Shown: one piece after another, positions 1,542-11,181 of the stretch
Layout: the number at the start of each line of letters is the position of its first letter
Numbering within the stretch: the first letter of the stretch is position 1
Translations under genes and position numbers: made by a program
Notes under the pieces: generated by a model
Seen by the model: only the letters and a program-made list of their open reading frames with translations
Told to the model about the DNA's origin: nothing
Database searches by the model: none
NCBI RefSeq assembly: GCF_028728065.1
Contig: NZ_CP117811.1
Span: forward strand, 2,728,001 to 2,792,000
Origin: Lentisphaera profundi
Lineage (GTDB): Bacteria > Verrucomicrobiota > Lentisphaeria > Lentisphaerales > Lentisphaeraceae
Direction: 5' to 3'
DNA: 64,000 nucleotides

Positions 1542-2639
1542 CTAAATTTTACCTAAGCGTTTGAGGATATTTCTAATTTCACTGGTTTCAGTTCCCTCTT
1601 CACGAGCCACTTCTTCAGCTCTAGTTTCCATATTGACTGCAACCTTTTCCATTTTTGTATTATGGTCGATTGATTTTTTGATTTTTTCTCGTGTAGTTTC
1701 TTCTGCAACACGATTGTAATCATCGACCAAGTCAGCGGGCTTTCTAGAGTATAAAAGCGACACTGTGATATGTGGCTTATCGATATTAGGGTTTCTTACA
1801 ACACTGTATATAGGAGTTACTTTTTGAGCATCGAAATGGTCGAGAATATTATAAAAAACAGTGTGATCATAGTTTTCTGGTACTTCCAATAAGAAGAGTG
1901 CTTCAATGGGGACATCTGGTCTTAGCATCAGTTCATTGTAATTTTCTTCCATCTGTTCATCAAAGTAACGGTCAGGGTTATATTCAAAATCGGTAAAATA
2001 ATTAAAGAATGATTTTGATTTATAGGCTTCAAAATCTTCTCTATCAATATGACCCTCTAAAAGCTCATATTGGTCCCCTTTTTCTGGGATACTATTTAAA
2101 GTTGCAAGACTATTACAAATCATTTCATTGAAGGCTTTTTCAGCCATTCGTCCTTCAAACTTACACTTATTACTAAATAAGAAGGTGTTGCCTGTGTTGG
2201 TGCTATCAACACCTTTCCATAAGGGACCCTGTAAAAATTCTATAGTGTTGTTTACGTACTCACTCGGCTCTTTCTTTGCATAGGGTAGGATAATGATAAA
2301 CTGTGTTCTGTTGATATCACTAACTTTCTCTAGGGATGATACATAATTGAGTACTTGTGAAGTAATGCCATTACCTGTGCCTCCACCAGAGGATGTAATG
2401 ATGGCATTGCCCTTGATAATGTCGAGTAATTGTCCTCGAACACTATTAAAAGCTGTTTTGCCGATATTAGGGTCCTTTTTTGAACCAACTAATTGTCCTT
2501 TTTCGTTGTTTGTATAAGCCAAAATACTGTTGGCTAATCCAAGCTTATGCATCTCAACTTCGGACACATTAATTACTGTTGCTTCTTTACTTAAGCCTGA
2601 GGCAAGTTTGCCGCCGGCTCCGCCGATTCCTATTATCAT
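1542..2639 (-). CDS. tubZ: TubZ-like tubulin/FtsZ-family GTPase
   Basis: The 365-residue protein begins with the FtsZ/TubZ nucleotide-binding loop (IGIGGAGGKLASGL, residues 3-16). At 85-91 it carries the tubulin signature GGGTGNG, preceded by SS; the usual small residue before the last Gly is Asn here. It lacks the length and C-terminal tail pattern of cell-division FtsZ. It ends in a charged, Glu/Arg-rich helix (about residues 310-365), as polymerising plasmid and phage tubulins do. The start overlaps the stop of the winged-helix gene by 4 bp (ATGA), so the two are one operon. By analogy with TubZRC it would form GTP-dependent filaments that move DNA bound by TubR. That role is inference; the GTPase fold is well supported. 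A T7-loop candidate is the TDFEYNPD region, which I am not sure of. Confidence 0.8.
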   Translation of the reverse strand: MIIGIGGAGGKLASGLSKEATVINVSEVEMHKLGLANSILAYTNNEKGQLVGSKKDPNIGKTAFNSVRGQLLDIIKGNAIITSSGGGTGNGITSQVLNYVSSLEKVSDINRTQFIIILPYAKKEPSEYVNNTIEFLQGPLWKGVDSTNTGNTFLFSNKCKFEGRMAEKAFNEMICNSLATLNSIPEKGDQYELLEGHIDREDFEAYKSKSFFNYFTDFEYNPDRYFDEQMEENYNELMLRPDVPIEALFLLEVPENYDHTVFYNILDHFDAQKVTPIYSVVRNPNIDKPHITVSLLYSRKPADLVDDYNRVAEETTREKIKKSIDHNTKMEKVAVNMETRAEEVAREEGTETSEIRNILKRLGKI

Positions 2640-2962
2640 TTCACTGTCTCCAGGTAGTTGGATTTTAAAATATCAAATTTTTCGCCTAAACGCATAAGTG
2701 CTTTGGCACCATGTTCTGTTAAATATAGGCTCTTTCTATTACGTTGTTCTCTTAGTTCTATGAACTGTAAGTACTTGAGTGTCTCTACATATGATACAGC
2801 GCTCTGCTTCGTCCTTGTGACTCCCGACATTTTGAGGTCATCAAAGACATTAGTTATATTGTAGCCCTCGCGTTTATCTTCAGCCACCATGGTCCAATAG
2901 AGTACCAAGAAGTGTTGGTAATCAAGACCTTCTATCTGTTTTCTGTAGAGTTCATCATTCAT
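2636..2962 (-). CDS. tubR: TubR-like winged-helix DNA-binding protein
   Basis: This 108-residue protein has the look of a winged helix. A helix-turn-helix sits around residues 35-65 (NVFDDLKMSGVTRTKQSAVS) and is followed by a beta-wing rich in Arg/Lys (FIELREQRNRKSLYLTEHG, residues 68-87) and a C-terminal helix. It directly precedes the TubZ-like gene with a 4-bp overlap. It is itself preceded by an AT-rich region of repeated motifs. In known type III partition systems the adaptor is encoded exactly here, binds the centromere and represses its own operon. The family call rests mainly on fold and context; a MarR/ArsR-type regulator of other function cannot be excluded. Confidence 0.65.
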   Translation of the reverse strand: MNDELYRKQIEGLDYQHFLVLYWTMVAEDKREGYNITNVFDDLKMSGVTRTKQSAVSYVETLKYLQFIELREQRNRKSLYLTEHGAKALMRLGEKFDILKSNYLETVK

Positions 2963-3002
2963 AATAGCTTTAATCTAATCATTCTTATTTATAAGTCAAT
3001 TT

Positions 3003-3283
3003 GTACTGTGATATAATATACTGTAGTTGAGTATAGTGTAATATAGTGTGGTTTACTATAGTTATGTATACTTTTATATTGATTTATCTGTAGGTATAAG
3101 TATATAAGAAGTTTATGTCCTTGGTTTGTTTTTGATCTATTTCTGTGTGTTTGTTATTGCTCTATTTGTAGTGTACTACTTTTGTGTTCTTGTTTTATCT
3201 ATAAATATTTAACTATTAAGTTCTTATGGTTTGTTTTATTCGTCATGGTGTATACTACGGGTTATAGTGTAGTATACTACTAT
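3003..3283. promoter_or_regulatory. tubC-like iteron and inverted-repeat region
   Basis: Upstream of the tubR-like gene lies AT-rich DNA with recurring TATAGTGT/ACACTATA motifs. Two tandem 10-bp units, (G/A)TATAGTGT(A/G), stand at 3031-3050, and an inverted ACTATAG follows at 3055-3061. Two near-identical 12-bp palindromes, GTAGTGTACTAC (3168-3179) and GTAGTATACTAC (3269-3280), lie 101 bp apart. A further TATACTAC is at 3251-3258. Repeats in this position are expected for the adaptor-binding centromere of a TubZRC locus and would also cover the operon promoter. Binding is inference. Confidence 0.55.
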
Positions 3284-9587: not shown

Positions 9588-11181
9588 GATGCACTCCGAC
9601 ATTCTATGCGGCGACCTCAATCTCTATTTGACATAATAACTGGCAGATCCTTTCCAAGTTGAATCCTATGGCGCTTATGAGAGTTTCTTGACGAACCCTC
9701 TTTAAGCCACAAACGGTAAATCGCTCAAGGTTGTGATAGTTCTTCAGCTTTGAAATACCTGCTTCGGAAATTGATCGGATATTTCTCGCAAGTTGGTAGT
9801 TTTCACTCTCATAAATATCTTCTCCTAAGAGCTTCTTTCCCTTTGAGCCACTAACACTGACTAATGTCGCCCCTTTTTCGATGGCATCATCTAAATTGGC
9901 GGCAGAGCTATATCCGTCATCCACACTGATCATCATTGCGGTCTCGCCCGTCATCTTTTTATTTTCATCAAGGCAATTACTGAAGGCCTTGCTGTCACTA
10001 GTATTTCCAGATTCTAGGGTGAATGATGTCAGAAAACCATTGGCACTAAAGGCGAAATTTGGTCGGTAGCCAAATACGGTTTCTCGACCACCCTTTTTAA
10101 TAAATGCTGCATCATTATCACTCATGCTGTAAATTTTCCGTGCCGTCTTCGTATCGTAGTCCTTAGGAGCCATGTTGAAGCGATGTTCAACCATCAAAAC
10201 TTTATCTATGAAGCGAGATAGACATTCGTCAATCATCAGAACTTTGGCACTTTCACAGTGTTGTTTAATTTGAGGAAGAGTCTTCTCCAGGCGAATAATA
10301 AATTTTCGGCACCTCGGTAAAAGTTCTTGCGTATAAAACTTTTGCCTCATTTTTCTTGCTCCTTTTTTTCCTTTAAGCATAGAGATCTCGAAATCCAGTT
10401 TACTCATATAATCACAGTAATTTTGCAGGCGTTTGAGAGGGATCTTTCTGCGCTCAACACAGGGAAGCTGATCATGAACGTCACTGATATTTTTCATCAT
10501 TTTACAACTAAGGTTCTTTAGTAATTGACTATCGACAGGCCACGCTGAATCGGCCTTAATGGCTGTAGAATCAATAATCACTGCTGAAAAATCATCCAGG
10601 CCACACTCCTTAACGCAGTTCAAAATAGCTTGATGAAAAAGATTAAGGGTCTTCTCAGAAAGAGCAGAGACTTGTTCATGAATCGTATTGCGTGAAGGGA
10701 AGCTTCCTATGCCCAAGCGCCCAATAAACTGCTGCAAGGAACTATTCTCACATAGCATACTATAGCCTCGTTCACCGTAACAATTATCATAAAAGTGACG
10801 GGCTATGAACAACGCCACCACCAATTCAGCTGGGGGGTGTTTTTGGGTAGAGCTGTTTTTAAACTCGCGGTTTCTAGTGGCGGCTCTATCTTTACTCAAC
10901 TGAAGTTGATCATCTTCAATTGCCTTTTTGATCTCTTGAAATTCAGGACGAAGTATGATTTGCCCCGCAATCTTCAATGGTCCGCATAAAATTCCTATAG
11001 TTTGCCGTAATTCCTCGATGAAATATTCGGGAAAAAGAGTATCGTACATTGAAAGTCCCACTTGCTGTTATTGTCGGTGTAAGCTACTACAATATAGGCG
11101 ATTAAGTGGGATTTTTTATTGGAAATTATAACTTTAAGCTATTTTTTAATAGCACTTGAGAATGATCTGTCGGAGTGCATC
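9588..11181 (-). mobile_element. Insertion sequence, 1.59 kb, DDE transposase
   Basis: The element is bounded by perfect 14-bp terminal inverted repeats GATGCACTCCGACA (9588-9601 and, inverted, 11168-11181). It is flanked by a CAGCTA duplication (9582-9587 and 11182-11187). It holds one transposase gene and lies in the YdjM-like gene. The family is uncertain (IS4/IS5/IS1182-like superfamily). Confidence 0.85.
9604..11049 (-). CDS. DDE transposase of the 9.6-kb IS
   Basis: This transposase of about 481 residues carries the catalytic acidic residues in VIIDSTAIKAD (first Asp), SVDDGYSSAANL (second Asp) and RSISEAGISKLKNY (Glu). An N-terminal helical DNA-binding region includes GERGYSMLCENSSLQQFIGR. 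The stop lies three bases inside the left inverted repeat, so the gene fills the element. The ATG at 11049 is taken as the start; a GTG four codons upstream is possible. There is no frameshift, so the enzyme may be active. It resembles IS5/IS1182-type proteins, but I cannot fix the family. Confidence 0.85.
   Translation of the reverse strand: MYDTLFPEYFIEELRQTIGILCGPLKIAGQIILRPEFQEIKKAIEDDQLQLSKDRAATRNREFKNSSTQKHPPAELVVALFIARHFYDNCYGERGYSMLCENSSLQQFIGRLGIGSFPSRNTIHEQVSALSEKTLNLFHQAILNCVKECGLDDFSAVIIDSTAIKADSAWPVDSQLLKNLSCKMMKNISDVHDQLPCVERRKIPLKRLQNYCDYMSKLDFEISMLKGKKGARKMRQKFYTQELLPRCRKFIIRLEKTLPQIKQHCESAKVLMIDECLSRFIDKVLMVEHRFNMAPKDYDTKTARKIYSMSDNDAAFIKKGGRETVFGYRPNFAFSANGFLTSFTLESGNTSDSKAFSNCLDENKKMTGETAMMISVDDGYSSAANLDDAIEKGATLVSVSGSKGKKLLGEDIYESENYQLARNIRSISEAGISKLKNYHNLERFTVCGLKRVRQETLISAIGFNLERICQLLCQIEIEVAA

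Follow-up and report, generated by a model that had tools for sequence, protein, structure and literature searches.

The window, i.e. the whole 64,000-nucleotide stretch of Lentisphaera profundi DNA that was analysed, contains two overlapping genes, here called Z and R, and a set of regularly spaced repeats in front of them. Their parts, in window coordinates, are as follows:

1476-1508, no strand assigned: probable intrinsic terminator downstream of Z, a 14-pair stem with A/T runs on both flanks
1542-2639, minus strand: Z, a TubZ/FtsZ-like GTPase of 365 amino acids (ORF call)
2636-2962, minus strand: R, a TubR-like winged-helix protein of 108 amino acids (ORF call)
2972-2999, minus strand: possible promoter of the RZ operon, TTGACT-16-TAGATT, a consensus match only, between the array and R
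3005-3072, no strand assigned: putative centromere/operator (tubC-like), about 14 units of A(C/G)T, one every 5 bp
3166-3181, no strand assigned: minor block whose A residues at 3170 and 3175 keep to the 5-bp register of the main array
3263-3281, no strand assigned: minor block TATAGTGTAGTATACTA, 88% like 3042-3058

R is the first gene and Z the second, and the main array lies 43 bp upstream of the start codon of R. Because A/T runs are present on both flanks of the stem, the terminator is possibly shared with the converging strand. The preliminary description of this DNA had placed the two ORFs with a 4-bp overlap, which the ORF coordinates bear out. It had also pointed to a GIGGAGG loop and a GGGTGNG motif, and both are present in Z, which starts with MIIGIGGAGG. 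The AT-rich repeats that it had noticed upstream are likewise real: GC content is 26% in the 300 bp upstream of R, and A(C/G)T is phased there at 5 bp, which is not random AT-richness. The wider surroundings, from 2.708 to 2.808 Mb of contig C1, are an AT-richer stretch with many blocks of 33-37% GC, compared to about 40% in most sampled blocks of the genome. An ISNCY/IS1182-like transposase is encoded at 9604-11061 of the window (minus strand), about 7 kb from the operon.

The phase of the array recurs in related loci. In 28 genomes, pairs of A(C/G)T at distances of 5, 10, 15 and 20 bp were counted 180, 147, 115 and 93 times, compared to about 15 after dinucleotide shuffling; no excess was found at other distances. 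The corresponding counts in 59 upstream regions are 376, 303, 226 and 190, against 16-43 off-phase, with (T/A/C)-A-(C/G)-T-A as consensus unit. When 843 kb were scanned, the array score was 31.4 at the L. profundi tub site and 8.5 at the next best place. A 7-unit pattern with at most three mismatches occurs at three places in the 5.46-Mb genome, and this whole-genome search found a multi-register array at the tub site and no second one, the other large replicon included. A candidate second array near 2.615 Mb was rejected, as it lies within coding sequence and has no extended phase. In 15 of 16 neighbourhoods tested, from genomes of about 32-66% GC, the best array site is situated 68-416 bp upstream of R, often together with a second, weaker block, also in GC-rich genomes; in the remaining genome, G114, the array was not detectable. 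Five base pairs correspond to half a helical turn of DNA, so that adjacent units lie on opposite faces, and it is natural to infer that a filament of R would wrap both of them. Three plasmid tubC regions lack the 5-bp phase. The strict array is best read as a putative new centromere design, which would carry an easily recognised signature.

Z possesses the loops of a tubulin-family GTPase: T1 GIGGAG, T4 GGGTGNG and likely T7 HIDxEDF. Residues G6, G7, G9, G85-G89 and G91 are invariant in 48 Z sequences, as are the likely T7 acids D199/D202. The C-terminus is conserved and basic, LKR(I/L)GK, with L359 and R361 invariant and K364 nearly so; in place of an FtsA/ZipA-binding peptide, which was not found on Z, the protein ends in LKRxGK. 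Scans of both proteins against NCBIfam, PHROGs and Pfam gave nothing above curated cut-offs and nothing convincing for R, and the tubulin match of the single Z sequence reached 17.6 bits, below the cut-off of 33. The Z family profile matched FtsZ 9v7v with an E-value of 4e-7 over residues 2-106 and TubZ/RepX 4ei7 with 7e-7 over the longer span 18-205, and in a profile comparison the distances of Z to TubZ (E 4.2e-7) and to FtsZ (E 1.9e-6) are much alike. The AlphaFold model of Z (pLDDT 88.9) was matched by Foldseek to FtsZ, TubZ and CetZ with E-values of about 1e-15 each. FtsZ structures lead this fold list when it is ranked by E-value, and the highest TMq among the matches listed, 0.71, belongs to Bacillus TubZ 2xka. 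In a mixture-model tree, with TubZ from plasmids of Priestia, Bacillus velezensis, B. pumilus and Pontibacillus as yardsticks, the Z sequences form a separate clade (99/99). Nine FtsZ from the phylum lie outside it in another (100/99), and Z groups with the four plasmid TubZ (91/84). As long branches meet at this point of the tree, a closer relationship of Z to TubZ than to FtsZ is likely, not proven.

The family profile of R gave one convincing match among 177,635 PDB sequences: TubR of plasmid pBM400 (4asn), with an E-value of 9.6e-4 and nearly full length. The AlphaFold model of R (pLDDT 95.1) has the topology a1-a2-a3-a4-b2-b3-a5, and the published order of elements in TubR is likewise four helices, two strands and a helix (PMC5016525). 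Superposition of the model on 4asn gave TMt 0.79 and rmsd 2.4 over 91 columns, the top TM-scores among the matches listed, with Foldseek E-values slightly better for several winged-helix regulators than for 4asn.

The near-equal profile distances of Z to FtsZ and TubZ, and the FtsZ structures at the top of its fold list by E-value, would also suit a divergent FtsZ paralogue accompanied by a MarR-like autorepressor, with no tie to DNA movement. The usual MarR operator is much smaller and less regular than such an array. Together with the size and regularity of the array, the position of Z in the tree, away from the FtsZ of its phylum and next to plasmid TubZ, and the specifically TubR-like character of R make this explanation quite improbable in our judgement. 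The strongest argument for the affiliation to TubZRC systems is a joint one, composed of a TubZ-like and a TubR-like protein, the order of the operon and the upstream array. The preliminary description had read the locus in the order tubC-tubR-tubZ, and this reading gains support from the placement of the 365-residue protein outside the FtsZ clade of the phylum, from the TubR-like nature of R and from the recurrence of the pair in Lentisphaeria. Its prediction of a winged helix in the small protein also holds, TubR being the closest relative by both profile and fold, and so does that of a charged tail instead of the FtsZ peptide: the tail is conserved, and the peptide sits on a separate FtsZ encoded in the dcw cluster. 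That description made no mention of the 5-bp phase, the closeness to the probable origin, the lack of ParB/SMC or the decay of FtsZ.

Comparison with TubZRC of pBM400 (Priestia megaterium) and of Bacillus plasmids reveals a common tubC-tubR-tubZ order with repeats upstream of R, the fold and topology of TubR, and a tubulin-fold GTPase with a basic C-terminal tail, which in plasmid systems contacts TubR-tubC (PMC7762940, PMC5016525). The 4-bp overlap of tubR and tubZ in pBM400 is also frequent in Lentisphaeria RZ loci. Identity between the Lentisphaeria and plasmid proteins is too low for BLASTP. Of the defining features of type III systems, those present in the sequence are a GTPase with intact loops, an adaptor of TubR fold, the gene order and an upstream cluster of putative binding sites. 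Carriage by a plasmid or phage was not found, and it is typical of the best-studied members rather than of the mechanism. Unlike plasmid TubZRC, the Lentisphaeria module is chromosomal, near the probable origin, and has the 5-bp phase. Some Clostridia also have TubZ/TubY on the chromosome; in the account given of them, however, TubZ occurs without TubR in a host using Soj/Spo0J (PMC7762940), whereas in Lentisphaeria R and the array nearly always accompany Z and canonical ParB is mostly absent.

In all loci having upstream sequence, 28 of 28 and 58 of 58, the gene just before Z is R. The junction is an overlap or a short gap, with one exception of 146 bp among the 58, and in the neighbourhoods compared neither a third widely conserved gene nor a TubY-like partner was seen beside the pair. 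The pair is present in 29 of 289 genomes of the phylum. Since PF00091 failed on the Z of L. profundi itself, lack of a Pfam match was not taken as absence, and presence was scored with our own profile (A1), which matched 60 of 198 genomes of the class; one of these, G016, is a weak FtsZ cross-match, leaving about 59. The distribution is nearly all-or-none per family: all six genomes of the own family (f1) and 27 of 28 of another (f6) carry the pair, and four families (f2, f3, f9 and f13) have no convincing match among the matches listed. Two of the named carriers are Lentisphaera marina IMCC11369 and Oligosphaera ethanolica DSM 24202. In the neighbourhood of the L. profundi operon, genes for PcnB, HolB, AsnS, AlaS, BCCP and IspD are located on one side and one for a PdxB-like dehydrogenase on the other, and the pair is a single-copy one. 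Compared with their L. marina counterparts, Z and R of L. profundi have dN/dS values of 0.016 and 0.021, respectively, at high dS; both genes are under strong purifying selection.

These data bear on the explanation that the operon is a TubZRC of a plasmid or integrated element, selfishly retained or left as a remnant, and without function for the host. Plasmids and phages carry all of the well-studied TubZRC systems (PMC7762940, PMC5016525), a few carriers outside the class show a patchy pattern (genome G081 has the pair and the sampled relatives in its genus do not), and the transposase is encoded about 7 kb away. Against this stand the core-gene neighbours, the single copy, the occurrence in nearly all members of several families (the 6/6 and 27/28 above), dN/dS of about 0.02 and searches of phage, plasmid and IMG/VR collections in which no relatives of the pair were found; we regard such an origin as very improbable. 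The preliminary description had left the choice between a chromosomal or integrated locus, a phage-like system and the trace of a plasmid. Of these, the chromosomal alternative, a locus that appears to be vertically kept, is favoured, and the phage-like and plasmid-trace alternatives are disfavoured by the gene context, copy number, family-wise spread and lack of relatives in the phage, plasmid and IMG/VR collections.

We propose that the locus is probably an operon for DNA partition of type III (TubZRC-like), carried on the chromosome. From its sequence we infer binding of the array by R, polymerisation of Z and movement of the origin. Bound along the 5-bp-phased array, dimers of R would build up a nucleoprotein filament that would also repress the RZ operon; the coated array would capture a GTP-driven filament of Z, probably via the basic C-terminal tail of the latter, and the dynamics of Z would then draw the origin region of the replicon along or set its position.

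The main rival of this proposal arises from the state of FtsZ. The only other tubulin-family ORF of L. profundi is the dcw FtsZ (C2:394570-395184). FtsZ of this type belongs to the same superfamily as Z and has similar T1/T4 loops; in this genome it is a separate ORF, and Z is placed outside the FtsZ clade and lacks the FtsA-binding peptide. In L. profundi its T1 loop is altered (GLGERAG) and the GGGTG of T4 is gone, while the FtsA-binding C-terminal peptide is kept; FtsZ of L. marina is in the same state, and several relatives in the Oligosphaera family have lost the C-terminal GTPase half. Lentisphaera FtsZ could possibly be an FtsA-bound pseudo-FtsZ, judging from these motifs. Lentisphaera is listed among FtsZ-encoding bacteria, in passages that make no mention of FtsZ decay (PMC5147048, PMC12283558). 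As FtsZ has lost its GTP-binding motifs and Z is the only tubulin-family protein found in this genome with such motifs intact, Z may have taken over cell division, with R and the array serving only autoregulation or coupling division to the origin. Z, however, lacks a C-terminal peptide of the FtsZ type and has two strict partners, a TubR-like protein and a phased array. We know of no division FtsZ that needs partners of this kind. Moreover, divergence of the T4 and T7 loops of FtsZ is class-wide, found also in genomes without Z (the extreme forms were seen only in lineages with Z), and some genomes with Z, G233 among them, have a full-length FtsZ with the GGGTG loop kept. A strict rule that presence of Z means a dead FtsZ was rejected because of this class-wide divergence. 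Taken together, we consider a division role for Z unlikely.

A partition operon would be expected close to a replication origin, the place typical of an origin-proximal segregation module such as ParABS. GC skew was read in 20-kb sample blocks, so that proximity to the origin is good to a few percent of replicon length. On C1 of L. profundi, skew stays below zero between 1.65 and at least 2.62 Mb and is above zero from 2.708 Mb onwards; the locus is at 2.7295-2.7311 Mb. On C1 of L. marina, the flip occurs between 0.54 and about 0.60 Mb and the locus is at 0.608 Mb; on the single 5.73-Mb contig of Oligosphaera, it occurs between 1.82 and about 2.25 Mb and the locus is at 2.10 Mb. An uncultured member of the class (G046) has weak skew, with a flip at 1.2-1.4 Mb, the lowest sampled point near 1.2-1.3 Mb and the locus at 1.31 Mb. 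Since each single coincidence has a chance of about 5-10%, the set is suggestive, not final. In L. profundi, L. marina and Oligosphaera, the GC-skew minimum, which marks the probable origin, is close to the locus. dnaA is not near the locus in any of these four genomes. Both contigs of L. profundi, C1 (2808341 bp) and C2 (2649562 bp), comprise complete plus and minus halves of skew, which points to two large replicons; the RZ locus is on C1 only, and dnaA is on C2. C1 of L. marina is a mosaic of the two in which the block around the locus matches C1 of L. profundi, so that the locus seems to remain beside the skew minimum even as the arms are rearranged.

ParABS differs from the RZ module in motor, adaptor and site. 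The canonical ParB model found nothing in L. profundi or L. marina and scored above the curated cut-off in two of 57 genomes of the class searched (G126 and G028), with ParB present in all eight sampled genomes of two families of other classes. Bacterial SMC (TIGR02168) was not found in ten of ten genomes of the class, with or without Z (G000, G209, G083, G046, G055, G079, G230, G006, G150 and G117), and the same model was positive in G081 and most control genomes. A strict replacement of ParABS by Z was rejected: members of the class without Z also lack ParB and SMC, and Z is therefore no simple replacement.

A wider proposal, which we put forward tentatively and at somewhat less than even chance, is that in a large part of Lentisphaeria the origin is moved by a tubulin homologue via a TubR-coated 5-bp centromere, in a lineage which lost ParABS and SMC and in which FtsZ is decaying. 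Tubulin-type partition has so far been known from plasmids and phages, and where the cited literature mentions TubZ on a chromosome, TubR is lacking. If the proposal is true, this complete and vertically inherited module, close to the origin in genomes without detectable ParB/SMC, would show that bacterial chromosomes can be segregated by a homologue of tubulin, and would be the counterpart in bacteria of chromosome segregation by tubulin. Because L. marina and O. ethanolica are culturable, the question is directly testable.

Outside the class, G081 carries the RZ pair at C1:1429886, 44 kb from dnaA at C1:1385867; ParB and SMC are both present in this genome, more than 1 Mb away. As sampled relatives in its genus are without the pair, it was probably acquired in G081.
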